A DNA stretch of 64,000 bases. It comes from a virus. Below the pieces are notes generated by a model. It was not told where the DNA came from. It did not search any database and saw only the letters and a program-made list of their open reading frames with translations. Below, one piece after another: positions 228-9,261 of the stretch; positions within the stretch are counted from its first letter, which is position 1, and each line of letters begins with the position of its first letter. Location of the stretch: IMG/VR virus record IMGVR_UViG_3300013093_000019, positions 1 to 64,000 of that record; one strand, given 5' to 3'. The position numbers and the translations under genes are program-made.

Positions 228-240
228 AGGATGTTTTCGG

Positions 241-269
241 TTGACAACTGGTAAAACCTGTGCTATAGT
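241..269 (+). promoter_or_regulatory. Sigma70-type promoter with GGTAAAACC element
   Basis: TTGACA (241-246), 17-bp spacer, TATAGT (264-269). The spacer carries GGTAAAACC at 250-258. It drives the gene starting at 298. Confidence 0.9.
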
Positions 270-297
270 TATGGCTAGTTAACTGAAAGGAGCGACA

Positions 298-471
298 ATG
301 GACTCATATACAGCAGTAGGCATAGCAGAGGGCTTCGTTGAAGCTGAATCAGAAGATCAGATCATAGCTGCTTGGCAGCACTTGATTGACACTGGCATGG
401 CTTGGAGCCTCCAGGGATGGTTCGGCCGTACAGCACGTGATCTTATCGAGAGAGGCATTTGTACAGCATAA
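298..471 (+). CDS. Small conserved phage protein, 57 aa
   Basis: ATG 298 follows AAAGGAGCGACA, a good ribosome-binding site, and the frame runs to TAA 469-471. The protein contains AAWQHLIDTG and SLQGWFGRTARDLIE. I recall very similar short proteins (GIAEGF…WQHLIDTG…GWFGRTA) from many tailed phages as a domain of unknown function. It is soluble, with no signal or membrane segment. It forms a one-gene cassette between the promoters at 241 and 476. Confidence 0.8.
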   Translation: MDSYTAVGIAEGFVEAESEDQIIAAWQHLIDTGMAWSLQGWFGRTARDLIERGICTA

Positions 472-475
472 GGGG

Positions 476-504
476 TTGACAAGTGGTAAAACCTATGCTA
501 CAAT
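476..504 (+). promoter_or_regulatory. Sigma70-type promoter with GGTAAAACC element
   Basis: TTGACA (476-481), 17-bp spacer with GGTAAAACC, TACAAT (499-504). The leader has the ACACATACACTAA-type sequence shared by most early leaders here. It drives the gp88-like gene at 532. Confidence 0.9.
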
Positions 505-531
505 GTACACATACACTAAAAAGGAGCAACG

Positions 532-1224
532 ATGTTCAAACTATTAAGCACTGCGAACCCTAAGATCCAAAAGGGTACTAAGCTAGGTTACTTGTCATTC
601 ATCCTGCATTTGGCGCCCGCTGATCTAAGCGGTCGAGAAGTATGCCCCAAACGTACAGCTGGCTGCACTGCCGCTTGCCTCAATACCGCCGGACGTGGAG
701 GCATGTTTAAGAAGGGTGAGAATACGAATGCTATCCAAAAGGCTCGTATACGTAAGACTGAATACTTCTTTAATGATCGCGAGGGGTTCTTACGTGATCT
801 AGAGGCTGACATCCGCAAGGGCATCAAGTTCGCTGAAAAGCAGGGATTGAAGCCAGTGTTTCGTCTGAATGGTACGAGTGATCTTGCGTGGGAAAAGTAC
901 GGTATCATCCAAAAGTTTCCTGAAGTACAGTTCTATGACTATACTAAAGTACTAGGACGCAAGGTCGCCCACTTAAAGAACTATCATCTCACGTTCAGCC
1001 GCGCTGATGGTAACGCAGCAGACGTGCCTAAGGCTGTTGCTCAGGGCATGAACGTGGCAGTGGTCTACGATGAGATCCCAGAGGGAGTGTTCTCAGCGGA
1101 CGAGACGGACCTACGCTTCTTAGATCCCAAAGTGGGCATCATTGGCTTGAAGGCCAAGGGCCGTGCTAAGAAGGACACCACTGGATTCGTAATCCGTATT
1201 CATTCAGTGGTTGACAAGCGGTAA
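532..1224 (+). CDS. Gp88-family phage protein
   Basis: This is a 230-aa protein with ATG 532 behind AAAGGAGCAACG. The start LLSTANPKIQKG, then LAPADLSGREVCPKRTAGC and AACLNTAGRG, match the phage gene-product-88 family, whose hallmark is this cysteine cluster (CP…GC…ACL…GR). Family function is unknown; the conserved cysteines suggest metal or Fe-S binding. Length fits the family. The last codons (…VVDKR stop) are built from the TTGACA and operator bases of the next promoter, so gene end and promoter are fused. Confidence 0.85.
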   Translation: MFKLLSTANPKIQKGTKLGYLSFILHLAPADLSGREVCPKRTAGCTAACLNTAGRGGMFKKGENTNAIQKARIRKTEYFFNDREGFLRDLEADIRKGIKFAEKQGLKPVFRLNGTSDLAWEKYGIIQKFPEVQFYDYTKVLGRKVAHLKNYHLTFSRADGNAADVPKAVAQGMNVAVVYDEIPEGVFSADETDLRFLDPKVGIIGLKAKGRAKKDTTGFVIRIHSVVDKR

Positions 1225-1239
1225 AACCTGTGCTATACT
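1211..1239 (+). promoter_or_regulatory. Sigma70-type promoter with GGTAAAACC element
   Basis: TTGACA (1211-1216), 17-bp spacer with GGTAAAACC, TATACT (1234-1239). It overlaps the last four codons and the stop of the upstream gene. It drives the gene at 1268. Confidence 0.9.
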
Positions 1240-1267
1240 ATACACTTATACACTAAAGGAGTTGAAA

Positions 1268-1588
1268 ATGGTTACAGCAGAATTCATCAAAGCAGGTAAG
1301 GTTTTTGCCGAGCAAGCTGGCCAGGCAATGTACGCGAAAGTCGGCGAGCGTGATGCATGTGGTTTTGGTTGGGTTGAGGTCTATGTGGATCGCACCAATT
1401 CAAAGCAGGCTAAGGAGTTATTGGCCGCAGGCTTCCGCAAGGACTACAAACCCAAATGCCTTAGCATGTGGGACCCAGCAGGCATCCCTACACAGAGCAT
1501 TTCAGTCAAAGAAGCAGGCGCCTATGCCTACGCAGAGTACCTAACCAAGTTGGGCTTGAAGGCCTATGCTGGTAGTAGACTGGACTAA
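1268..1588 (+). CDS. Hypothetical phage protein, 106 aa
   Basis: ATG 1268 is chosen because AAAGGAG stands before it and the promoter lies at 1211-1239; an in-frame upstream extension would begin inside the promoter. The protein reads CGFGWVEVYVDRTNSKQAKELLAAGFRKDY in part and ends with an AYAYAEYL helix. I recall similar sequences in phages but not a function. It is soluble and mildly basic. It is a one-gene cassette followed by a long structured untranslated segment. Confidence 0.75.
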   Translation: MVTAEFIKAGKVFAEQAGQAMYAKVGERDACGFGWVEVYVDRTNSKQAKELLAAGFRKDYKPKCLSMWDPAGIPTQSISVKEAGAYAYAEYLTKLGLKAYAGSRLD

Positions 1589-1601
1589 AGGATACCGCCC
1601 A

Positions 1602-1687
1602 CCCTGGGTCAAACGATGATAAGCTACCTTGTAGCATCCCAGGGAGGGTTGGTTTGATTAATTGCTCCGGTCAACGCAACGTTGGCC
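1602..1687 (+). other. Structured untranslated segment (3' UTR or small RNA candidate)
   Basis: Two hairpins follow the gene ending at 1588. In the first, CCCTGGG (1602-1608) pairs with CCCAGGG (1638-1644) and encloses an inner GCTAC/GTAGC stem (1623-1627 with 1631-1635). The second is an 8-bp stem, 1669-1676 with 1680-1687, with a CAA loop. The terminator at 1693 closes the unit. I see no open frame here. A structured RNA is inferred. Confidence 0.5.
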
Positions 1688-1692
1688 TTTGT

Positions 1693-1726
1693 GGGGTGTT
1701 GTTTATATGCAACACCCCGTTTTTTT
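1693..1726 (+). terminator. Strong Rho-independent terminator
   Basis: GGGGTGTTG (1693-1701) pairs with CAACACCCC (1710-1718) over an 8-base loop, then G and seven T. Its T-run almost touches the next -35 box at 1729. Confidence 0.92.
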
Positions 1727-1728
1727 GG

Positions 1729-1757
1729 TTGACCTTTGGTAAAACCTGTGTTATACT
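1729..1757 (+). promoter_or_regulatory. Sigma70-type promoter with GGTAAAACC element
   Basis: TTGACC (1729-1734), 17-bp spacer with GGTAAAACC, TATACT (1752-1757). It drives the gene at 1784. Confidence 0.88.
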
Positions 1758-1783
1758 ATACACTAGACACTAAGGAGAGCAAG

Positions 1784-2047
1784 ATGTATACAGTAGAACT
1801 TTACAAAAAGGATGCCCGCAAGAAGACGGGAGAACGATTGGATCGCAAGGTAGATCATTCCACAGCAGACCGCGCAGCTATCGCAGAGGTCTATGCTAAG
1901 AAGTATCCTGCCAGCAAAGGTTACCGCTTTGAGATCTACGAGACCTATGTGACCCGCACCAACTTGATGGGCGGAGCAGAGTATCAGGAACGCTATGATA
2001 CTCCTCGCTATTGTTCGCCTAGTTCAGAAGCCTACTGGAGCATGTGA
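1784..2047 (+). CDS. Hypothetical phage protein, 87 aa
   Basis: ATG 1784 lies behind AAGGAGAGCAAG. The sequence begins MYTVELYKKDARKKTGER and has ADRAAIAEVYAKKYPASKGYRFEIYETYV, a compact alpha/beta look with strand-helix-strand alternation. I do not recognise a family with a known function. The stop TGA (2045-2047) overlaps the start of the SWIM-finger gene, so the two are translationally coupled. Confidence 0.75.
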   Translation: MYTVELYKKDARKKTGERLDRKVDHSTADRAAIAEVYAKKYPASKGYRFEIYETYVTRTNLMGGAEYQERYDTPRYCSPSSEAYWSM

Positions 2048-2382
2048 TGAAGTGGATGCGTGAAACTACGGTGTGGGATGAAGCCACACCCAACCATCTC
2101 TACTTGATGGAAGGTGACAACTGTCATGCCTATGTGATGGCTGGATCTAACGAACACAAGGTCTTTGCCAAGCCATTGAGGTTCGATCTGCGTAGGAGAA
2201 CATTTGTTAAGGTCAAAGAGTTCGCCCCAGTCGCTGCAGCGAGCACAAAGACGGTGACCGGTTCTAAGGGCGAAGTCTACGAGGTGGATACAGCAGCTCA
2301 GACCTGCACATGCCCGGGATTCAAGTTCCGAGGCACTTGTAAGCATGTGGCAGAAACGCAACAGCTGGCAACTATTGGTTGA
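2047..2382 (+). CDS. SWIM zinc-finger protein, 111 aa
   Basis: Near the C-terminus is CTCPGFKFRGTCKH, a CxC-x8-CxH pattern that is the signature of the SWIM zinc finger, a nucleic-acid or protein binding module. The preceding GEVYEVD is the usual beta-strand before the finger. The rest has no recognised domain. ATG 2047 overlaps the upstream stop (TGATG); GTG 2044 is an alternative start. The protein is likely an early accessory or regulatory factor binding nucleic acid, which is inferred from the finger. Confidence 0.8.
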   Translation: MKWMRETTVWDEATPNHLYLMEGDNCHAYVMAGSNEHKVFAKPLRFDLRRRTFVKVKEFAPVAAASTKTVTGSKGEVYEVDTAAQTCTCPGFKFRGTCKHVAETQQLATIG

Positions 2383-2407
2383 CAAGTGGTAAAACCTGTG
2401 CTATAAT
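2379..2407 (+). promoter_or_regulatory. Sigma70-type promoter with GGTAAAACC element
   Basis: TTGACA (2379-2384), 17-bp spacer with GGTAAAACC, TATAAT (2402-2407). The upstream stop codon TGA lies inside the -35 box. Promoter plus leader is almost identical to that at 2601. Confidence 0.92.
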
Positions 2408-2439
2408 ATACACATACACTAAACGAAAAGGAGCAGAAA

Positions 2440-2604
2440 ATGACTAGACAAGAACTCGGCGAGTTGGCCATTGAAATCCTTCTAGGGGCAGATCTAGACG
2501 ACAATAGCGAGGATGGTGATATCCGTGTAGATCCTAACTTGTTGTTCCGCTTCTACGTCATGCGTCACGAGGCCCTGAAAAACACTGAAGTCACCCACGG
2601 TTGA
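2440..2604 (+). CDS. Small hypothetical protein, 54 aa
   Basis: ATG 2440 follows AAAAGGAGCAGAAA, and the frame ends at TGA 2602-2604, which lies inside the next -35 box. The protein is acidic (GADLDDNSEDGD) between a helical N-terminus and FRFYVMRHEAL. Function is unknown. Support comes from the promoter, the ribosome-binding site and the exact cassette layout rather than from homology. Confidence 0.65.
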   Translation: MTRQELGELAIEILLGADLDDNSEDGDIRVDPNLLFRFYVMRHEALKNTEVTHG

Positions 2605-2629
2605 CAAATGGTAAAACCTGTGCTATAAT
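2601..2629 (+). promoter_or_regulatory. Sigma70-type promoter with GGTAAAACC element
   Basis: TTGACA (2601-2606), 17-bp spacer with GGTAAAACC, TATAAT (2624-2629). It drives 2662 and the genes after it. Confidence 0.92.
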
Positions 2630-2661
2630 ATACACATACACTAAACGAAAAGGAGCAGAAA

Positions 2662-2865
2662 ATGAGCGGTATCTATGATGCAGTCCAAAACCCAATCCCA
2701 CGCAGTGGATTGTTCGCAACTAAGACTCTTCCAGAGTTGCAGGAGTATGTTGAGTCAATGAATGCCAAAGAGAAGGCCCAGGCCTACTTGATCATGCAAC
2801 TGACTCTCAACGCCTGTTACCAGTTGGTAGAGGACGAGATTCTTTCTAAACCCGTATTTGCTTAA
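2662..2865 (+). CDS. Small hypothetical protein, 67 aa
   Basis: ATG 2662 has the same AAAAGGAGCAGAAA leader as the gene at 2440. The protein is mostly helical (LPELQEYVESMNAKEKAQAYLIMQLT). No family is recognised. It is the first gene of an operon: the next start follows within 10 bases with its own AAGGAG. Confidence 0.7.
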   Translation: MSGIYDAVQNPIPRSGLFATKTLPELQEYVESMNAKEKAQAYLIMQLTLNACYQLVEDEILSKPVFA

Positions 2866-2874
2866 GGAGACGAT

Positions 2875-3453
2875 ATGCCAAATTGGTGCAATAACACAGT
2901 AGAGATCGCACACAAAGATCCTGCTAAACTCAAGGCCCTCGTTGAGGCTTACAATGATGGTAAGTTCTGTTCCTATGCTATTCCAGTGCCTTCAGATCTT
3001 CATATCGTGGCTGGTCGCGTAGGTGATGACAATGATCCTAAACAGATCGAGCTTGAAGCACAAGAGAAGCGTAATCTTGAGACACACGGTTACAAGACTT
3101 GGTATGACTTCTGCGTTAATGAGTGGGGCACCAAGTGGGACTGTGGTGGTGACGGTGATCAGATCGAGCTTGAAGAAGGCCAGGACAATACGACCCTGTG
3201 CTTTGATAGTGCGTGGAGTCCACCTATTGGTGTGTATGAAGCATTGGTTGAGCAAGGCTTTGAGGTCCGTGCTTATTACTACGAGCCAGGCATGAACTTT
3301 GCAGGCATCTGGGACAACGGTAACGATGAGTTCTACGAGTTGCCAGGTTCAAGTGATGCTGTTGTTGATGAGATCCCTGCTGTGCTTGACGAGATGTTTG
3401 GCATTTCAGAGACTATGGCTGAGTATGAGTCTATGGAGGCCGACAGTGAGTAA
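2875..3453 (+). CDS. Api92/YubB-like (DUF1281-type) protein, 192 aa
   Basis: The start MPNWCNNTVEI and the later SAWSPPIGVYEALVEQGF are typical of the Api92-like / YubB ferredoxin-fold family found in phages and plasmids. The family function is unknown. The central region is acidic and the C-terminal 40 residues are strongly acidic (DEFYE, DEIPAVLDEMFG). ATG 2875 follows AAGGAGACGAT. The stop overlaps the GTG start of the next gene by 8 bases. Confidence 0.8.
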   Translation: MPNWCNNTVEIAHKDPAKLKALVEAYNDGKFCSYAIPVPSDLHIVAGRVGDDNDPKQIELEAQEKRNLETHGYKTWYDFCVNEWGTKWDCGGDGDQIELEEGQDNTTLCFDSAWSPPIGVYEALVEQGFEVRAYYYEPGMNFAGIWDNGNDEFYELPGSSDAVVDEIPAVLDEMFGISETMAEYESMEADSE

Positions 3454-3970
3454 ACTCACTACGATCATAACCGGAACCGTCGCTGTGGCGGTTCTTGGTT
3501 TCCAGCAGATGGAGATCGAGTCTGTCCATGAGGATGTTCAGGATATCAAGGCCTACATCATCAAGACGAACGATCGTATCAGTTACACGAAGGCTGATGA
3601 AGACTGCTTGGCCAAGAACATCTATCACGAAGCAGGAGTTGAACCAACCCTAGGTAAGTTCGCTGTTGCTCAGGTCACCCTGAATAGGCTGCGCGATGGA
3701 CGGTGGGGTCATAACATCTGTAAGGTCGTGTATGCCCCTAGTCAGTTCTCATGGACTCTTTACAAGAAACAGCGTTATGCCCAGCCTAAGGGTCCGCTGT
3801 GGACTCAGAGCCGTGAGGTGGCCAGGAGTGTGCTAGCCGATGGTTATCGCGTGGCTAACCTGAAGGACAGCATCCTTTACCACGCTGACTACATCAAAGA
3901 GCCAGTCTGGGCCAAGAGTGTTGTGAAAATACAACGGATTGGGCAGCACATTTTTTACGCAAAGGCTTGA
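3446..3970 (+). CDS. SleB-type cell wall hydrolase, 174 aa
   Basis: This is a peptidoglycan hydrolase of the SleB/Hydrolase_2 family. The signature runs NIYHEAGVEPTLGKFAVAQV, then VTLNRL, ICKVVYAPSQFSWT and a C-terminal HIFYAKA. The glutamate of YHEA is the presumed catalytic acid. I choose GTG 3446 over the upstream in-frame ATG at 3299 because GGAGG (3435-3439) precedes it by 6 bases and the new N-terminus (SKLTTIITGTVAVAVLGF) is a membrane anchor or signal segment. It could act in lysis or in exclusion. The stop TGA lies inside the next promoter. Confidence 0.85.
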   Translation: MSKLTTIITGTVAVAVLGFQQMEIESVHEDVQDIKAYIIKTNDRISYTKADEDCLAKNIYHEAGVEPTLGKFAVAQVTLNRLRDGRWGHNICKVVYAPSQFSWTLYKKQRYAQPKGPLWTQSREVARSVLADGYRVANLKDSILYHADYIKEPVWAKSVVKIQRIGQHIFYAKA

Positions 3971-3995
3971 CATTTGGTAAAACCTGTGCTATACT
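3967..3995 (+). promoter_or_regulatory. Sigma70-type promoter with GGTAAAACC element
   Basis: TTGACA (3967-3972), 17-bp spacer with GGTAAAACC, TATACT (3990-3995). It overlaps the stop of the hydrolase gene and drives 4023. Confidence 0.9.
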
Positions 3996-4022
3996 ATATG
4001 CTACAGTGAGAGGAGTGGTACC

Positions 4023-4238
4023 TTGTTAGATAATATTTTAAAGTGGACAGCTTGTGCTGTTACACTAGCAGGGGCTCTATGTACAGCTCTCAAACTGGAT
4101 CCAGCAAACGTTGTGCTGCTGAATCTCGGGGCGTTGTTGTACTTGATATGGGCCGTACGTATACGCGAGCTGAATCTGATAGTGATTAACGGTGCACTAT
4201 TAACCATTTACCTTGTAGGGTTATTAATTAGAGCTTGA
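4023..4238 (+). CDS. Small integral membrane protein, 71 aa
   Basis: A TTG start at 4023 lies behind GAGAGGAG; no better start exists. There are three hydrophobic stretches: WTACAVTLAGALCTAL, VVLLNLGALLYLIWAV and LIVINGALLTIYLVGLLI. The pattern resembles short PQ-loop/SemiSWEET-like membrane proteins seen in marine phages and bacteria, but I cannot assign transport. It is probably an inner-membrane protein. The stop lies within the next -35 box. Confidence 0.7.
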   Translation: MLDNILKWTACAVTLAGALCTALKLDPANVVLLNLGALLYLIWAVRIRELNLIVINGALLTIYLVGLLIRA

Positions 4239-4263
4239 CAACTGGTAAATCCTGTGCTATACT
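4235..4263 (+). promoter_or_regulatory. Sigma70-type promoter with variant GGTAAATCC element
   Basis: TTGACA (4235-4240), 17-bp spacer with GGTAAATCC (one change from the others), TATACT (4258-4263). It drives 4298. Confidence 0.88.
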
Positions 4264-4297
4264 ATGCACTTAAACACTTAACACAAAGGAGCTTTAA

Positions 4298-4657
4298 ATG
4301 GAAATGACAACTGAACAACGCAACTACTTTATCCGTCGTTTGGACGAGATTACTGCTGACAAAATTAAAGCAAAGGCAACTGAGCTTTATGGCCCTGCTG
4401 GACGCCCTGAGAGCCCTACATGGGGCACAGTATTTGCGGCGATTAAAGCAGGCGAGATTACGCTTAAAGAGGGCACGGAGGACAATACTAACGCTTACTT
4501 AACTCCGAACGATGTTGTATGGCCTGCTATGGAAGCAAAGAAAGCAGAGTTGGACGCTTACAAAGCAACGCTAAAAGCAGAGCGCCAAAAAGCATTGGAT
4601 GCGGTAATGCTGGACGCAACTGCAAGCGAAGCATTGGCTAACTACGAGGCGTTGTAA
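4298..4657 (+). CDS. Hypothetical helical protein, 119 aa
   Basis: ATG 4298 follows AAAGGAGCTTTAA. The protein starts with an RNYFIRRLDEITADKIKAKA helix and ends with a long charged helix (EAKKAELDAYKATLKAERQK), probably a coiled coil. No known function. It is a single-gene cassette ended by a hairpin that also holds the next promoter. Confidence 0.75.
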   Translation: MEMTTEQRNYFIRRLDEITADKIKAKATELYGPAGRPESPTWGTVFAAIKAGEITLKEGTEDNTNAYLTPNDVVWPAMEAKKAELDAYKATLKAERQKALDAVMLDATASEALANYEAL

Positions 4658-4663
4658 TAACGC

Positions 4664-4704
4664 AACACAGGGGGCTTGACATTTAGGCCCCCTTGTGTTA
4701 TACT
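4664..4704 (+). promoter_or_regulatory. Promoter embedded in a terminator-like hairpin
   Basis: AACACAGGGGGC (4664-4675) pairs with GCCCCCTTGTGTT (4687-4699), with one bulge. The -35 TTGACA (4676-4681) forms the start of the loop, and the -10 TATACT (4699-4704) begins at the last base of the right arm, 17 bp after the -35. There is no GGTAAAACC element. The leader after it is the usual ACACATACACTGA type. It drives 4734. Confidence 0.85.
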
Positions 4705-4733
4705 ACACATACACTGAACAACTAGGAGCTGAA

Positions 4734-5216
4734 ATGGGAACTAGATCACGAATTGGCGTTATGCACGGTGACAAGGTCAAGTCTGTATACTGTCACTGGG
4801 ACGGCTATCTTGAACACAATGGCGCTATCCTGCAAGAGCACTACGATAGCACAAAGGCCAACAACTTGGTCGCGCTGGGAGACTTGAGTAGCCTGCGAGC
4901 TAACATTGGGGTCGAACACGCATTCAGCAAGCTGGATATCCCAGAAGATCAAGCGGCAGCATTTGAGACGGAACACGGCGACTCCTGCACATTCTACGGT
5001 CGAGATCGTGGCGAAGAAAACACTAGCTGGAAGGTAGCACACACATTTGAAGAGTTCCTTGATCAGGTTCACAACTGTGGCGCTGAGTACTACTATATCA
5101 TGAAGGATGAAGTATGGTACGCTGGCGCTGTATATGAAACAGCTGGCGTAATTAAGGAAGGTCTTGTACCTCTCACAGAGGCTCTCAAGACAGTTAACGT
5201 GGAGGAGACTGTATGA
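4734..5216 (+). CDS. Conserved phage protein (MGTRS…HWDGY type), 160 aa
   Basis: ATG 4734 is chosen because TAGGAGCTGAA precedes it; the upstream in-frame extension falls in the promoter. The N-terminus MGTRSRIGVMHGDKVKSVYC followed by HWDGYLEHNG is a conserved pattern I know from many phage proteins of unknown function. It is soluble and acidic. Its stop overlaps the next start (ATGA), giving a three-gene coupled set 4734-5579. Confidence 0.75.
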   Translation: MGTRSRIGVMHGDKVKSVYCHWDGYLEHNGAILQEHYDSTKANNLVALGDLSSLRANIGVEHAFSKLDIPEDQAAAFETEHGDSCTFYGRDRGEENTSWKVAHTFEEFLDQVHNCGAEYYYIMKDEVWYAGAVYETAGVIKEGLVPLTEALKTVNVEETV

Positions 5217-5428
5217 AAACAGTACGAGTTGAAACACTCTTAACACAAGAGCTCGAAGTTCCTGACAACTGGGAGCGTGAGGATGTGTTTGATTTCCTCG
5301 CTGAGAATCAGTCATTCCGCACAGCCTTCCAGGGTGTGAGCAATGAAGAGCAGACAGCCCGCATCGTCGATCTTGGCGTTGTGGAAGAGAAAGTAACTGA
5401 AATGGGAGAGGAAGCATACGATGAGTAG
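5213..5428 (+). CDS. Small acidic hypothetical protein, 71 aa
   Basis: ATG 5213 overlaps the upstream TGA (ATGA) and has GGAGGAGAC before it. The protein is acidic with a beta-rich start (VRVETLLTQELEVP) and an EEKVTEMGEEAYDE tail. Function is unknown. Its stop overlaps the start at 5421. Confidence 0.7.
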   Translation: MKTVRVETLLTQELEVPDNWEREDVFDFLAENQSFRTAFQGVSNEEQTARIVDLGVVEEKVTEMGEEAYDE

Positions 5429-5579
5429 ATTCGCTGTTGTTTATGAGGACCCCGAGTACGAAGTCGAGTTATCAGACGATGAGCTCGATTGGGAAGGAGT
5501 TGACACCGCACCTTTGGGAGCGATCGTCGATGGTTGGGTTAGATTGACTGTGGCAGAAAAGCCACAACAAACAGCTTGA
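5421..5579 (+). CDS. Small acidic hypothetical protein, 52 aa
   Basis: ATG 5421 overlaps the end of the upstream gene by 8 bases, with GGAGAGG upstream. The product is MSRFAVVYEDPEYEVEL… with 13 acidic residues in its first half. The stop TGA (5577-5579) is formed by the -35 box of the next promoter. Function is unknown; the call rests on coupling, a ribosome-binding site and the shared stop/promoter design. Confidence 0.6.
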   Translation: MSRFAVVYEDPEYEVELSDDELDWEGVDTAPLGAIVDGWVRLTVAEKPQQTA

Positions 5580-5604
5580 CATTTGAGCAGTTTGGTAGTA
5601 TACT
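5576..5604 (+). promoter_or_regulatory. Sigma70-type promoter without operator element
   Basis: TTGACA (5576-5581), 17-bp spacer, TATACT (5599-5604). It lacks GGTAAAACC and has an unusual, longer leader, so it may be regulated differently from its neighbours. It drives 5661. Confidence 0.85.
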
Positions 5605-5660
5605 ATTAACAGTTAGAGAAGTTTCTAACAGATTTTTTACACACACAGAAGGAGTTAGTT

Positions 5661-6068
5661 ATGTCAGTTTTTACACATGCAGGTGTTTCACGTCAGAATG
5701 GCGAGTTCAAGGTACGTTTTTGCAATGATGCGCTACGTGTCAAAGTACTTGCTAAGAATGGTCACAAGGATATCGATATCGTTGAGCTTCGTGAGCCAAT
5801 GACCAAAGAAGCTGCTGTTGCCTATTTGATGAGCATTGACTTCGCAAACGGTAACAAAGAAGTACAAGCCGCACTGGAAGCTGCCGCTGATAAACGCGGG
5901 GTAACTGTTGTTAAGGCCAAGCCCGTAGCTAAGGCAAAGACTGTTGCAGAAAAGCCACAGGCCAAAGCTAAGACAGCAACTGGTCAAGCAACTGTGAAAG
6001 CAGCTGTACAGACTGAAGCTGAGGCGATCGCCAAGGCAGAAGCAGCTGTTGGTTCAGCGTTGATGTGA
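5661..6068 (+). CDS. Phage protein with Ala/Lys-rich tail, 135 aa
   Basis: ATG 5661 follows AAGGAGTTAGTT. Residues 1-80 form a compact folded part (FTHAGVSRQNGEFKVRF, DIDIVELREPMTKEAAVAYL). Residues 80-135 are low-complexity, rich in Ala, Lys and Val (VKAKPVAKAKTVAEKPQAKA), like histone H1-type or nucleic-acid-binding tails. It is likely DNA or RNA binding, which is inferred from the tail only. A terminator follows at once, so it is a monocistronic, possibly strongly expressed gene. Confidence 0.75.
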   Translation: MSVFTHAGVSRQNGEFKVRFCNDALRVKVLAKNGHKDIDIVELREPMTKEAAVAYLMSIDFANGNKEVQAALEAAADKRGVTVVKAKPVAKAKTVAEKPQAKAKTATGQATVKAAVQTEAEAIAKAEAAVGSALM

Positions 6069-6073
6069 TCACT

Positions 6074-6096
6074 GGGGGACTAGTTCCCCCAATTTT
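6074..6096 (+). terminator. Rho-independent terminator
   Basis: GGGGGA (6074-6079) pairs with TCCCCC (6085-6090), followed by AATTTT. It follows the stop at 6068. Confidence 0.8.
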
Positions 6097-6108
6097 AAGG
6101 AACAAATT

Positions 6109-6309
6109 ATGAAATCACTTATTGCTATCTTGGGTCTCATCGCTTTCGTTGTGCTGTTGATCGTGATCGGTCCACTGGCAACTATCTGGGCCTGGAACAC
6201 CCTGTTCACAGGATATACAATCGCATACAGCTTCGACACTTGGTTGGCTGTTGTTATTCTAGGAGCGTTCTTCCGTGCTAATGTTTCGATCAAAAAAGAA
6301 AAGAACTGA
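6109..6309 (+). CDS. Small membrane protein, 66 aa
   Basis: ATG 6109 follows TAAGGAACAAATT. There are two hydrophobic segments: residues 3-28 (IAILGLIAFVVLLIVIGPLA) and about 42-57 (TWLAVVILGAFF), with a basic tail KKEKN. It is an inner-membrane protein of unknown role. It overlaps the next gene by about 30 bases. Confidence 0.7.
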   Translation: MKSLIAILGLIAFVVLLIVIGPLATIWAWNTLFTGYTIAYSFDTWLAVVILGAFFRANVSIKKEKN

Positions 6310-6715
6310 GTACATTACCCCTGAGTTCTACAAGGACTGGGGTAACGCATCGTATGAAATAGAGCGTCTAGGCGCTCGTCTAGATGCAACTCGTGAGGCG
6401 ATCAAGCGGTTAGAATCGTGGGAAAAGCCCGAGGATCACTGGGCACTAACCAAGTGGCGCCTCAATGAGCAGATCATCTTACGCAAGTGGAAACACGCTG
6501 TAAGACTAAAGGAAACGGGATTACGCCAAACGGGAACGATCAATGAAGGACCTAAGATCGATTACAACTGGTGGGAACCCGCAGAAGAAGTAGTAGGGTC
6601 TAGCCCTATTTGGAATTACCTAGTTGATAAACTCTCAGGCGGACCTAATCTGAACCGTGCTTGGGACATGGCTAAACAGCATCAGTTAGAAATGGCAAGA
6701 AAAGGTCTTGCATAG
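6275..6715 (+). CDS. Hypothetical coiled-coil protein, about 146 aa
   Basis: The start is either GTG 6275 (AGGAG at 6261-6265, spacing 9) or ATG 6281. The N-terminus is basic (FRSKKKRTEY). Residues 25-95 are helical and charged (RLGARLDATREAIKRLESW), followed by a Trp-rich stretch (YNWWEPAEEV). Function is unknown. It is coupled by overlap to the membrane protein before it, so the two may work together. Confidence 0.7.
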   Translation: MLMFRSKKKRTEYITPEFYKDWGNASYEIERLGARLDATREAIKRLESWEKPEDHWALTKWRLNEQIILRKWKHAVRLKETGLRQTGTINEGPKIDYNWWEPAEEVVGSSPIWNYLVDKLSGGPNLNRAWDMAKQHQLEMARKGLA

Positions 6716-6736
6716 GGTATAGGATTGTGTTACAAT
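6708..6736 (+). promoter_or_regulatory. Probable sigma70-type promoter
   Basis: TTGCAT (6708-6713), 17-bp spacer, TACAAT (6731-6736). The -35 is weaker than in neighbours and there is no GGTAAAACC. It overlaps the end of the upstream gene and drives the winged-helix gene at 6786. Confidence 0.6.
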
Positions 6737-6785
6737 AGTTCTACGATGTGAGTACACATCAATACTAATAGAGGAAATAACAATA

Positions 6786-7058
6786 ATGAAACGTATCAAT
6801 TTAGAAACTAAAACTGGTAAGGTATTTACAGCTCTTCAAGCTGGTGAGAAGCTAACAGCTTCAGAAGCTAAGAAGCGTTTTGGCGTAGGCAACTTGAGCG
6901 CAGAAGCAAGCCGTCTTCGTGCAGCTGGTTACGCAGTCTACGCTAACAGCCGCAAAGCTGGCAATGGCGTTACCGTTACAGAATATGAGTTGGGTCGTCC
7001 AAGCCGTCAGATCGTAGCTTTAGGTTACAAAGCTGCCGCAATGGGCATCACACTCTAA
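6786..7058 (+). CDS. Winged helix-turn-helix DNA-binding protein, 90 aa
   Basis: Residues 8-65 read KVFTALQAGEKLTASEAKKR, FGVGNLSAEASRLRAAGY, then VTVTEYELG: helix, turn, recognition helix and wing strand, as in small winged-helix phage regulators. The protein is basic. It is monocistronic, with its own promoter lacking the GGTAAAACC element and a strong terminator after it. It is a candidate regulator of the early promoters in this window, but no sequence feature links it to a particular site. Confidence 0.75.
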   Translation: MKRINLETKTGKVFTALQAGEKLTASEAKKRFGVGNLSAEASRLRAAGYAVYANSRKAGNGVTVTEYELGRPSRQIVALGYKAAAMGITL

Positions 7059-7073
7059 ACAGTCGCTCCAAGT

Positions 7074-7143
7074 CCTGGGGGTAGTGTCCCAGGCAAACCC
7101 CTGAACCCCGGTCTATCGCAAGATATTCCGGGGTTCACCTTTT
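7074..7143 (+). terminator. Double hairpin with terminator
   Basis: The first hairpin pairs CCTGGG (7074-7079) with CCCAGG (7088-7093). The second pairs GAACCCCGG (7103-7111) with CCGGGGTTC (7128-7136) and is followed by ACCTTTT. The second is the terminator of the winged-helix gene. Confidence 0.75.
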
Positions 7144-7169
7144 GTGGCACAAATACAACACTCTAGGGG

Positions 7170-7198
7170 TTGACAGGTTTTACCTTTGATGCTATACT
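7170..7198 (+). promoter_or_regulatory. Sigma70-type promoter with the operator element inverted
   Basis: TTGACA (7170-7175), 17-bp spacer, TATACT (7193-7198). The spacer carries GGTTTTACC (7176-7184), the exact reverse complement of the GGTAAAACC found in the other promoters. It drives 7233. Confidence 0.9.
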
Positions 7199-7232
7199 AC
7201 ACTTACACTAACAAAACGTAGGAGCAAACGAA

Positions 7233-7316
7233 ATGGAACACTTATATTACTTTTTGCTTGGCGTGGTACTTTTCATTGTAGTCAACTATATCATGGAGGT
7301 TATGCGTGGCAAATAA
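7233..7316 (+). CDS. Membrane microprotein, 27 aa
   Basis: ATG 7233 stands behind TAGGAGCAAACGAA. The product is almost one transmembrane helix: YYFLLGVVLFIVVNYI with the tail MEVMRGK. It is too short for homology, but it is the first frame after a strong promoter and has a good ribosome-binding site. Role unknown. Confidence 0.55.
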   Translation: MEHLYYFLLGVVLFIVVNYIMEVMRGK

Positions 7317-7383
7317 TCCAATTCCAAAGAGCAACATTCGCAGTCCTAGCCCTATTTGCAATCAAATGCTGGATTATCACTAA
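7306..7383 (+). CDS. Possible microprotein, 25 aa
   Basis: GTG 7306 overlaps the end of the membrane microprotein, with GGAGG 6 bases upstream. It reads VANNPIPKSNIRSPSPICNQ and ends at TAA 7381-7383. Support is only the ribosome-binding site and overlap; it may be a coupling leader rather than a functional protein. Confidence 0.35.
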   Translation: MANNPIPKSNIRSPSPICNQMLDYH

Positions 7384-7399
7384 ACTCTAAGGAGCAGAT

Positions 7400-7594
7400 A
7401 TGCAGATTACCTACCAAGAACTCAAAGCATTCATTGAAACCTTAACACCTGAGCAGTTGGCCCTGCCCGCTATGGTCTATGCCGGCGATGTAGATGACGC
7501 TATGCCAGTGTTCAGTACTTCATTCAACACACCGGAAGAGATGGGCGAAAGCATGGAAGGTATCCCAGAGATCCAGCCCTTCATGCTAATTTAG
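7400..7594 (+). CDS. Small acidic hypothetical protein, 64 aa
   Basis: ATG 7400 follows AAGGAGCAGAT. It reads ITYQELKAFIETLTPEQLAL, then an acidic stretch (AGDVDDAMPVF). I recall short phage proteins with the same helix (tYgeLlafLe.Lt.eQL) but no function. It is the last gene before the next promoter. Confidence 0.7.
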   Translation: MQITYQELKAFIETLTPEQLALPAMVYAGDVDDAMPVFSTSFNTPEEMGESMEGIPEIQPFMLI

Positions 7595-7595
7595 G

Positions 7596-7624
7596 TTGAC
7601 AAACGGTAAAACCTGTGCTATACT
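7596..7624 (+). promoter_or_regulatory. Sigma70-type promoter with GGTAAAACC element
   Basis: TTGACA (7596-7601), 17-bp spacer with GGTAAAACC, TATACT (7619-7624). It drives 7654 to 8235. Confidence 0.92.
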
Positions 7625-7653
7625 ACACATACACTGAAACACTAGGAGCAGAA

Positions 7654-7794
7654 ATGGAATTAATCGGTCGTAAACTAGAGCAACTAATTGAAGCAATCCC
7701 GGTCCCAACCCCTGAACAGGGCGACAAGCTAGTAGGCTACACCTGCATCTTTGCGTTGGGTTTTATCGTTGGTATGTTGGCATTTGGAGGTTAA
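7654..7794 (+). CDS. Small membrane protein, 46 aa
   Basis: ATG 7654 follows TAGGAGCAGAA. An amphipathic first half (LIGRKLEQLIEAIPVPTPEQ) is followed by a single transmembrane helix (YTCIFALGFIVGMLAFGG). It is probably a tail-anchored inner-membrane protein of unknown role. Its GGAGG near the stop serves the next gene at 7796. Confidence 0.6.
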   Translation: MELIGRKLEQLIEAIPVPTPEQGDKLVGYTCIFALGFIVGMLAFGG

Positions 7795-7795
7795 T

Positions 7796-8053
7796 ATGTA
7801 TCCACAACTCACAAAACAAGAGCGGATCATCCGCGCCCTGAAGGGACCCCAGTTCGTACGCGATCGTCACGGCAGCTTGTATGATCGTGGCTCAGCAGAC
7901 AGTTACTATGATCGCAGCCCTAACCCACACTATGGCGGTGTTGGTGGCGATTCAGGGGATCGTGTAGCGGTTACTGACGAAGAATCAGTGGCTGAGTACA
8001 TGGCTGGTTACCGTTACAATGAACAGTACGGTGATAAGAAGGATTGGGGATGA
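7796..8053 (+). CDS. Hypothetical protein, 85 aa
   Basis: ATG 7796 is chosen because GGAGG (7786-7790) precedes it and it starts one base after the upstream stop. The protein has an N-terminal basic helix (TKQERIIRALKGPQFVRDRH) and Tyr/Asp-rich, disordered-looking middle (SADSYYDRSPNPHYGG). Function is unknown. The end overlaps the next start (ATGA). Confidence 0.65.
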   Translation: MYPQLTKQERIIRALKGPQFVRDRHGSLYDRGSADSYYDRSPNPHYGGVGGDSGDRVAVTDEESVAEYMAGYRYNEQYGDKKDWG

Positions 8054-8235
8054 TCAGGATAGCACCCACGTTGAACCCCTTAGAGGTCATGCTGGTAGCA
8101 GCTCACTACGAAGAGCGGGGAGTAGAGCATTACACACTCTCCCAGGGCAACGACTGTATCTGGGCCTACTACGGTGCTATCAACGAATATTTCATCTTTA
8201 GAGATGGTAAAATCGTTGACATACAGATAGATTGA
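8050..8235 (+). CDS. Small hypothetical protein, 61 aa
   Basis: ATG 8050 overlaps the upstream TGA. The protein (EVMLVAAHYEERGVEHYTL, WAYYGAINEYFIFRDGKIVD) looks like a small alpha/beta fold. No family is recognised. The next promoter starts inside its last codons. Confidence 0.6.
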   Translation: MIRIAPTLNPLEVMLVAAHYEERGVEHYTLSQGNDCIWAYYGAINEYFIFRDGKIVDIQID

Positions 8236-8244
8236 TGCTATACT
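8216..8244 (+). promoter_or_regulatory. Sigma70-type promoter without operator element
   Basis: TTGACA (8216-8221), 17-bp spacer, TATACT (8239-8244). There is no GGTAAAACC, but the leader is the common ACACATACACTAA type. It drives 8275. Confidence 0.88.
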
Positions 8245-8274
8245 ACACATACACTAACACTACAGGAGCGAGAA

Positions 8275-8595
8275 ATGAAAGAACTAGACACTAAAGAAGC
8301 AGGCGGATTTGCATTTGCAGCAGCTATGGATGCACAGCGTCGCAACTCAAACAATCGCAGCACATATTCAATTGAACAACAGCGTAAGGCTATCACAGCC
8401 CGCGATCTGTTAGACACAGCGTTCTCTTACTCAAAACTCTACATCAACTACCGCAAGAAGTTCATCGCTATCAAAGCAGAGGGAGCTCGTGCTAAGGATG
8501 CTATGGCTAAACAGGTGATCTGCTTGTTTGAGGCTAACGGGTATGGTGTTGTTTCTACGCCACAGGGTGTAATCATCCGTATTGACAAACGGTAA
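8275..8595 (+). CDS. Hypothetical protein, 106 aa
   Basis: ATG 8275 follows CAGGAGCGAGAA. The protein is helical and basic, with polar linker SNNRSTYSIEQQRKA and C-terminal strand pair (NGYGVVSTPQGVIIRIDKR). Function is unknown. As with the gene at 532, its last codons (IDKR stop) are formed by the following promoter's TTGACA and operator bases. Confidence 0.7.
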   Translation: MKELDTKEAGGFAFAAAMDAQRRNSNNRSTYSIEQQRKAITARDLLDTAFSYSKLYINYRKKFIAIKAEGARAKDAMAKQVICLFEANGYGVVSTPQGVIIRIDKR

Positions 8596-8610
8596 AACCT
8601 GTAGTATAAT
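8582..8610 (+). promoter_or_regulatory. Sigma70-type promoter with GGTAAAACC element
   Basis: TTGACA (8582-8587), 17-bp spacer with GGTAAAACC, TATAAT (8605-8610). It drives 8643 and 9031. Confidence 0.92.
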
Positions 8611-8642: not shown

Positions 8643-9029
8643 ATGATTCTAGTAATTGACACGCAGTACATGGAGAACTATGGCGCCCATGCGTGGGATG
8701 GCGAGGGTGAGTGCCCTCAGCACTGGAAGATGAAGGGCGGCTCCTGTTACAAGATCACCAATGTTCCTCGCAACGTGGACACTGAAGTGATCGTTGATAT
8801 GGTCCGCGGTGATATCGAAAGATCAAACGACTACTGCCGCGAATACATCCTAGGAGTCCACGTGGAAGACAATGGATGGCTCTCAGAGTTTGAAAGATCA
8901 CAGCAGGAGTATGAGGGTGAGATCACCTACGCAGAACCCGAGTTTGACTACTTGGATCTGCGTATGATTGAACTGAACACCTACGCAGACTCAGCTGCTG
9001 ATCAGGACGCTGTATACTATGGGGCATAA
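8643..9029 (+). CDS. Conserved hypothetical protein, 128 aa
   Basis: ATG 8643 follows AGGAGCTCGA. The start MILVIDTQYMENYGAHAWDG, then CPQHWKMKGGSCYKI and the cysteine-containing core, recall a phage protein family of unknown function. It is acidic throughout, with no signal or membrane helix. It is followed closely by 9031. Confidence 0.7.
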   Translation: MILVIDTQYMENYGAHAWDGEGECPQHWKMKGGSCYKITNVPRNVDTEVIVDMVRGDIERSNDYCREYILGVHVEDNGWLSEFERSQQEYEGEITYAEPEFDYLDLRMIELNTYADSAADQDAVYYGA

Positions 9030-9030
9030 T

Positions 9031-9255
9031 ATGATCAAGATTGAAGGACTCACCCGCAGGCAACGTGCGATCGCAGACGTTCTGTGGATGATGGAAGGCC
9101 GTGATCAGGTCTTGAGATTCGTTGAAACCCTCAACGAGGGATCACGTGCTGATGCCCGTGTGGTGCTCAACATGATGGTAGCTGTGACCCTAGACGGTTG
9201 CGATCATGTGGAAGAATCAACCCTAGAACTGATTGACAACATACGAAAACGATAG
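9031..9255 (+). CDS. Hypothetical helical protein, 74 aa
   Basis: ATG 9031 lies one base after the upstream stop, with a GGGG ribosome-binding-like run 6 bases before it; ATG 9019 is an alternative. It reads LTRRQRAIADVLWMMEGRDQ and RVVLNMMVAVTLDGC. No function is known. Its end is inside the promoter at 9233. Confidence 0.65.
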   Translation: MIKIEGLTRRQRAIADVLWMMEGRDQVLRFVETLNEGSRADARVVLNMMVAVTLDGCDHVEESTLELIDNIRKR

Positions 9256-9261
9256 TATAAT
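9233..9261 (+). promoter_or_regulatory. Sigma70-type promoter without operator element
   Basis: TTGACA (9233-9238), 17-bp spacer, TATAAT (9256-9261). There is no GGTAAAACC. The stop TAG of the upstream gene is the last three spacer bases. It drives the AAA+ gene at 9292. Confidence 0.88.

Follow-up and report, generated by a model that had tools for sequence, protein, structure and literature searches.

A movable nine-base-pair dyad in the spacers of early sigma70 promoters, a putative shared operator in a group of jumbo phages

The early gene cluster and its marked promoters

The DNA considered here, called the window in the following, comprises bases 1-64000 of the 151,369-base uncultivated virus record IMGVR_UViG_3300013093_000019, and our subject is a short element, GGT(W3)ACC and usually GGTAAAACC, that lies between the -35 and -10 boxes of promoters in its early gene cluster. 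The record carries myovirus modules (T4-type terminase, tail sheath and gp15-type sheath stabiliser), and among isolates it comes closest to PA5oct, MIJ3 and Paride, jumbo phages of Pseudomonas, with approximately 54% identity in the terminase and approximately 50% in the AAA ATPase. By sequence comparison, we appear to deal with a distant relative of the Pseudomonas phages PA5oct and Paride, and because the closest isolates are jumbo phages, the 151 kb probably represent only part of such a genome. Its first part (1-11 kb of the window) consists of small genes in a tandem array, many of them with their own near-consensus sigma70 promoter.

Searching both strands of the window yields 10 exact matches to GGTAAAACC, compared to a mean of 0.64 and a maximum of 4 in 100 dinucleotide shuffles, and all of them are located inside TTGACA-17-TATAAT spacers. 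Nine copies are situated on the plus strand, each 3 bases past the -35 hexamer in a 17-bp spacer. The promoter at 241-269 carries the element at 250-258 and drives the open reading frame (ORF) 298-471. It is followed on the same strand by the promoters at 476-504 (element at 485-493; ORF 532-1224, Pfam GP88), 1211-1239 (1220-1228; ORF 1268-1588), 1729-1757 (with the -35 hexamer TTGACC; 1738-1746; ORF 1784-2047, family 43), 2379-2407 (2388-2396; ORF 2440-2604), 2601-2629 (2610-2618; ORF 2662-2865), 3967-3995 (3976-3984; ORF 4023-4238 with a TTG start), 7596-7624 (7605-7613; ORF 7654-7794) and 8582-8610 (8591-8599; ORF 8643-9029). Another plus-strand promoter, at 4235-4263, bears the one-mismatch version GGTAAATCC at 4244-4252 and drives ORF 4298-4657. 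These ten promoters with their 17-bp spacers are those of the original prediction, made from the letters of this DNA, which had also correctly described GGT-AAA-ACC as a short inverted repeat. Its statement that the element always starts 3 bases after the -35 box is correct for these ten, but an overlooked promoter at 7170-7198 on the plus strand, which reads TTGACA GGTTTTACC TTTGATGC TATACT, departs from it. Here the tenth exact copy is inverted, as GGTTTTACC at 7176-7184, and follows the -35 hexamer immediately (offset 0).

Outside the window's promoter spacers no exact GGTAAAACC was found, including the remaining 87 kb of the record, where a near-consensus promoter on the minus strand, at record position 138843, contains only part of it (GGTAAAAAT). 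The motif search of the remaining genome and its relatives, which had been proposed as a check, thus gave no further exact copy in the record, and the element proved to be frequent in relatives of the jumbo group.

Conservation in relatives

For the comparison with relatives we used a motif-blind set of 80 loci, picked by their AAA ATPase while the motif was ignored (752 distinct promoters), and 1007 distinct spacers from all loci. In the motif-blind set the element occurs at offsets 0, 3, 4 and 5 from the -35 hexamer, with few copies inverted, whereas the spacer remains constant at 17 bp; the counts for GGTNNNACC are nearly all GGTAAAACC, and the remainder is A/T-centred. Of the 1007 spacers, 177 contain the element on either strand, while column shuffles predict 0.3. 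In an enlarged set, forward copies number 124, 84, 26 and 4 at offsets 3, 4, 5 and 0, respectively, and 20 inverted copies are found at offsets 0, 3, 5, 7 and 8. As a side observation, forward copies stand mostly at offsets 3-5 and inverted copies mostly at 0 and 7-8. A search restricted to A/T-only centres gave AAA 231 times, TTT 18, AAT 9, TAA 6, TTA 5, ATT 4 and ATA once. The three bases 5' of the element vary freely, and complementarity of the flanks around it is near chance. Furthermore, a TG extended -10 box is commoner at element promoters, and the spacers of all promoters of the group are A/T-rich near -20.

One long relative, G019, shows a coordinated change: 8 of its 11 elements read GGTAATACC, forward as well as inverted and at various offsets, whereas this version is found in only 1 of the 57 elements of seven other element-bearing long records. 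In the 322-kb relative G011 (L403-L419), 65 strong promoters contain neither the element nor any recurrent spacer word.

The element also stays with particular genes. It is kept at 9 of 10 promoters of family 43 (window 1784-2047), and at same-family promoters of families 43, 31, 20, 32 and 1 it persists despite changes of register, orientation or flanks; in family 20 the element lies forward at offsets 3 and 4 and inverted at 0, 3 and 8, and in family 32 forward at 3, 4 and 5 and inverted at 7. Within the AAA clade alone, a preference of the element for gene families was not clearly above chance (24.4, compared to a mean of 11.6 and a maximum of 35.4 in within-locus shuffles).

Taken together, these patterns support that the element has been selected as a unit across the whole phage group. 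Since it slides in register, inverts and, in G019, changes its centre in concert, it behaves like a common protein-binding site of many promoters. As a cis element, the site at approximately ten cassettes is well supported by these comparisons; the regulon that they would form is a putative one. GG immediately 5' of TTGACA (window 239-240 and most promoters of the group) is frequent as well, and more so with the element (approximately 80% compared to 47%).

Restriction to one phage group

Viral contigs were scanned with the pattern TTGAC-N4-GGTAAAACC-N2-T-N2-TA, i.e. the forward element at offset 3. It matched 86 viral stretches with up to 7 copies per stretch, compared to 19 stretches with one copy each for a control with the reversed element in the same place. 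The corresponding offset-4 pattern matched at least 120 viral stretches and the inverted element at offset 0 matched 11, whereas an offset-1 pattern with an equal number of fixed bases matched only 4. Wherever an offset-3 stretch has a genuine element promoter, it also encodes homologs of jumbo-group proteins, and the stretches lacking such homologs contain no element promoter. Hence, the site recurs in more than 70 viral stretches, every one from this jumbo group. A stricter pattern applied to 257 Gb of cellular genomes gave merely 5 scattered single matches, which does not fit a spacer sequence that turns up at random in host promoters. The element is restricted to one group of jumbo phages.

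Unmarked promoters, hairpins and other spacer words

Four plus-strand promoters of the cluster were said to lack the element, which is borne out. At 4676-4704, a 7-bp hairpin, AGGGGGC...GCCCCCT (window 4669-4693), holds the -35 box in its loop, and the promoter resembles a stem-loop-type cassette. The promoter at 8216-8244 contains the spacer motif CAGATAGATTGA, which is recurrent among relatives. Promoters of the gene family behind the one at 5576-5604 are without the element in 50/50 cases, and those of the AAA ATPase family, represented in the window by the promoter at 9233-9261 upstream of the AAA ATPase gene, in 55/55. ORF 5661-6068 encodes a conserved early protein, possibly a DNA-coating protein, whose tail is rich in lysine and alanine; the gene's own promoter is never marked by the element (0/50).

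Hairpins are a common property of the unmarked promoters in the group. With stems of at least 6, the -35 box lies in a hairpin loop in 47 unmarked promoters (17 expected), and an inverted repeat within the spacer occurs in 34 (3.9 expected), while the excess of stem-loops in marked promoters is marginal (8 vs 3.2). A column-pair analysis of the unmarked spacers revealed no shared dyad. Given this result and the marginal excess in marked promoters, general spacer hairpins were rejected as an explanation of the element. The perfect inverted repeats in spacers (L235, L229, L226, L244, L205 and others) are of varied sequence and far above chance, for example ACAGGGGG-TTCG-CCCCCTGT, GCACC-GAAA-GGTGC and CAACTC-GCCAAAA-GAGTTG, and the loops of promoter hairpins are often GNRA or TTCG or contain CCAAAA.

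Element-free relatives show recurrent spacer words of their own, such as GGGTCTTTG in 5 promoters of L234, TTTTGGACA/TGTCCAAAA in both orientations in L280 and others, GGTATTGAT in L205, TTGGCTG in L303 and TGGATAGAT in L324. Different phages of the group may use different operators. Regarding the long records, the ORF search matched the terminase of G019 (L438-L450) and the DnaB of G011 each in two pieces, the latter split near a 20-kb cut point; introns, frameshifts or assembly errors may account for these splits.

Search for the binding protein

Two proteins of the cluster had been named in the original prediction as candidate binders, the winged-helix protein HTH_39 (6786-7058, plus strand) and a SWIM zinc-finger protein (2047-2382, plus strand). 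HTH_39 was the top associated family in the motif-blind screen (28/31 vs 3/22 loci, Fisher 1.5e-8). Where the locus extends 4 kb or more upstream of the AAA gene, it is found in 33/33 element loci compared to 4/17 element-free loci, all from one clade, and its three inferred losses all fall in element-free lineages. A tree-aware sign test was not significant, with too few pairs. The structure model predicts a winged helix, and a structure search with this model returned weak generic matches only. Searching by the HTH_39 protein instead uncovered many element-free loci with 5-24 promoters each, including L268, in which a near-identical DNA-reading helix stands alongside 24 promoters and zero elements. 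Conversely, HTH_39 was not found in the long element-rich records G017 (326 kb), G019, G020 and G023, even with the Pfam model included. As a general partner it was therefore rejected, contradicted in both directions, and its association with the element is best read as shared lineage. The SWIM protein was rejected as well, since it is present in the element-free G011 and absent from the element-bearing G017, G018, G019 and G023. Moreover, in ten relatives no phage GntR protein exceeded the family cut-off.

Possible mechanism and alternative explanations

We consider it probable that GGT(W3)ACC is an operator, a short dyad for one sequence-specific protein, and that steric repression is the simplest mode of action. 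The putative operator sits between the -35 and -10 boxes of approximately ten near-consensus sigma70 early promoters, where a bound protein would block the binding of RNA polymerase, which makes repression the simplest mechanism. The small early genes, which are probably involved in host takeover, would be repressed together and might share a common timing, and the AAA ATPase gene, ORF 5661-6068 and other genes with unmarked promoters would escape this control. The original prediction had left open repression or a replacement of host contacts. The former is favoured, because a protein touching the polymerase would need a fixed position; the allowed centres of the element span approximately 8 bp, which makes a contact-dependent activator unlikely. 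The proposed protein-binding site itself stands as a cis element, given its sliding, inversion and concerted change of centre, whereas the binders named for it do not. Since only one phage lineage has the site, a phage-encoded binder is favoured over a host-encoded one.

Several observations weigh against this interpretation. The forward orientation is strongly dominant (231 AAA vs 18 TTT centres) and offsets 1 and 2 remain empty, a combination that is not explained by a purely steric repressor, and within the window all nine forward copies share a single register. Nine base pairs with 3-bp half-sites are short for an operator. Furthermore, none of the protein families encoded in the early cluster follows the distribution of the element, and a comparison of four long element-bearing records with G011 gave no obvious DNA-binding gene that all four share and G011 lacks.

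A regulator of the host could read the site instead, for example a GntR protein of the FadR/PdhR type, in which case the metabolic state of the host would gate the takeover genes. The core of the E. coli PdhR box is GGTnnnACC, and natural AAA-centred sites exist (PMC7660256). Because E. coli PdhR reads this very core, the host regulator is a live rival, and the failure to find a phage-encoded binder, including a phage GntR, adds to it. But the centre of our element is nearly always A/T whereas PdhR accepts any, its flanks are not TGGT...ACCA, and an operator for a host protein would be expected in unrelated phages of the same hosts as well, while the element is confined to one jumbo group. We therefore regard reading by a host regulator as unlikely, and the evolutionary scenario attached to it, that the jumbo phages of this group acquired at many promoters the operator of a PdhR/FadR-type host regulator by which cell physiology gates the takeover genes, as rather improbable. 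The element could also be the site of the phage's own HTH_39 protein, for which the co-distribution, the pattern of losses and the winged-helix model speak; the element-rich genomes without this protein, L268 and the non-significant tree-aware test make this quite improbable.

Two further explanations dispense with a specific binder. Promoter cassettes could have been copied around the genome, leaving the spacer as residual homology with no function of its own. A downstream ACACATACACTAA...AGGAGC segment common to marked and unmarked promoters, the frequency of stem-loop promoters in the group and the single register of the nine window copies are consistent with this. However, the bases preceding the element vary, the element shifts and flips inside a constant 17-bp spacer, same-family promoters keep the element alone, and the switch of centre in G019 across registers and orientations is left unexplained, so we give copying little credence. 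Alternatively, the spacer could be an element of RNA polymerase preferred by host sigma70 or the core enzyme, producing a very strong promoter, as the A/T-rich region near -20 and the commoner TG extended -10 box could suggest. Yet its register and orientation vary, most strong promoters of the same phages are unmarked, none of the 65 in G011 carries the element, and cellular genomes provide just the five scattered matches, which renders this highly improbable. A polymerase preference should result in a fixed register and copying in shared flanks; neither is seen, and a binding site explains all of these properties.

Regulatory systems of this kind are already known. The C1 operators of phage P1 form a multi-site repressor regulon of a temperate phage. 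The stoperators of Cluster A mycobacteriophages are short conserved sites at many phage promoters that differ among relatives (PMC9283540, PMC6550527), which resembles our element. Unlike stoperators, which are asymmetric and genome-wide, the element is a 9-bp dyad inside sigma70 spacers of one early cluster. It also differs from the temperate-phage regulons in that it belongs to a jumbo phage and its binder is only putative. The FadR/PdhR-type operators share the 9-bp core and the AAA-centred examples from E. coli (PMC7660256), and differ in the centre, the flanks and the lack of a phage GntR in the ten relatives, as discussed above.

Our window also shares features with systems of T4-type phages. 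These phages carry promoter-stem-loop (PeSL) cassettes, and here, too, strong sigma70-type promoters are dense and each stands before a small accessory gene; in some of them, in clear excess among the unmarked ones, a stem-loop encloses the -35 box. In contrast to PeSL cassettes, the conserved feature of the element promoters is a fixed sequence, and their excess of stem-loops is marginal. In T4 middle promoters the MotA box replaces the -35 box at a fixed place upstream of an extended -10 box. A conserved motif upstream of an extended -10 box is common to both, whereas the element promoters keep a consensus -35 box and the position of the motif is flexible.

Significance

In jumbo phages that do not belong to the phiKZ group, most early genes have yet to be characterised, and little is known about their regulation. 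A movable operator shared by host-type promoters would provide a sequence tag that groups such early genes into one putative regulon, and the element could serve as a simple DNA bait with which to isolate the regulator. Finally, the natural series of GGTAAAACC compared to GGTAATACC and GGTTAAACC may reflect a joint change of the regulator and its site in this group of phages.

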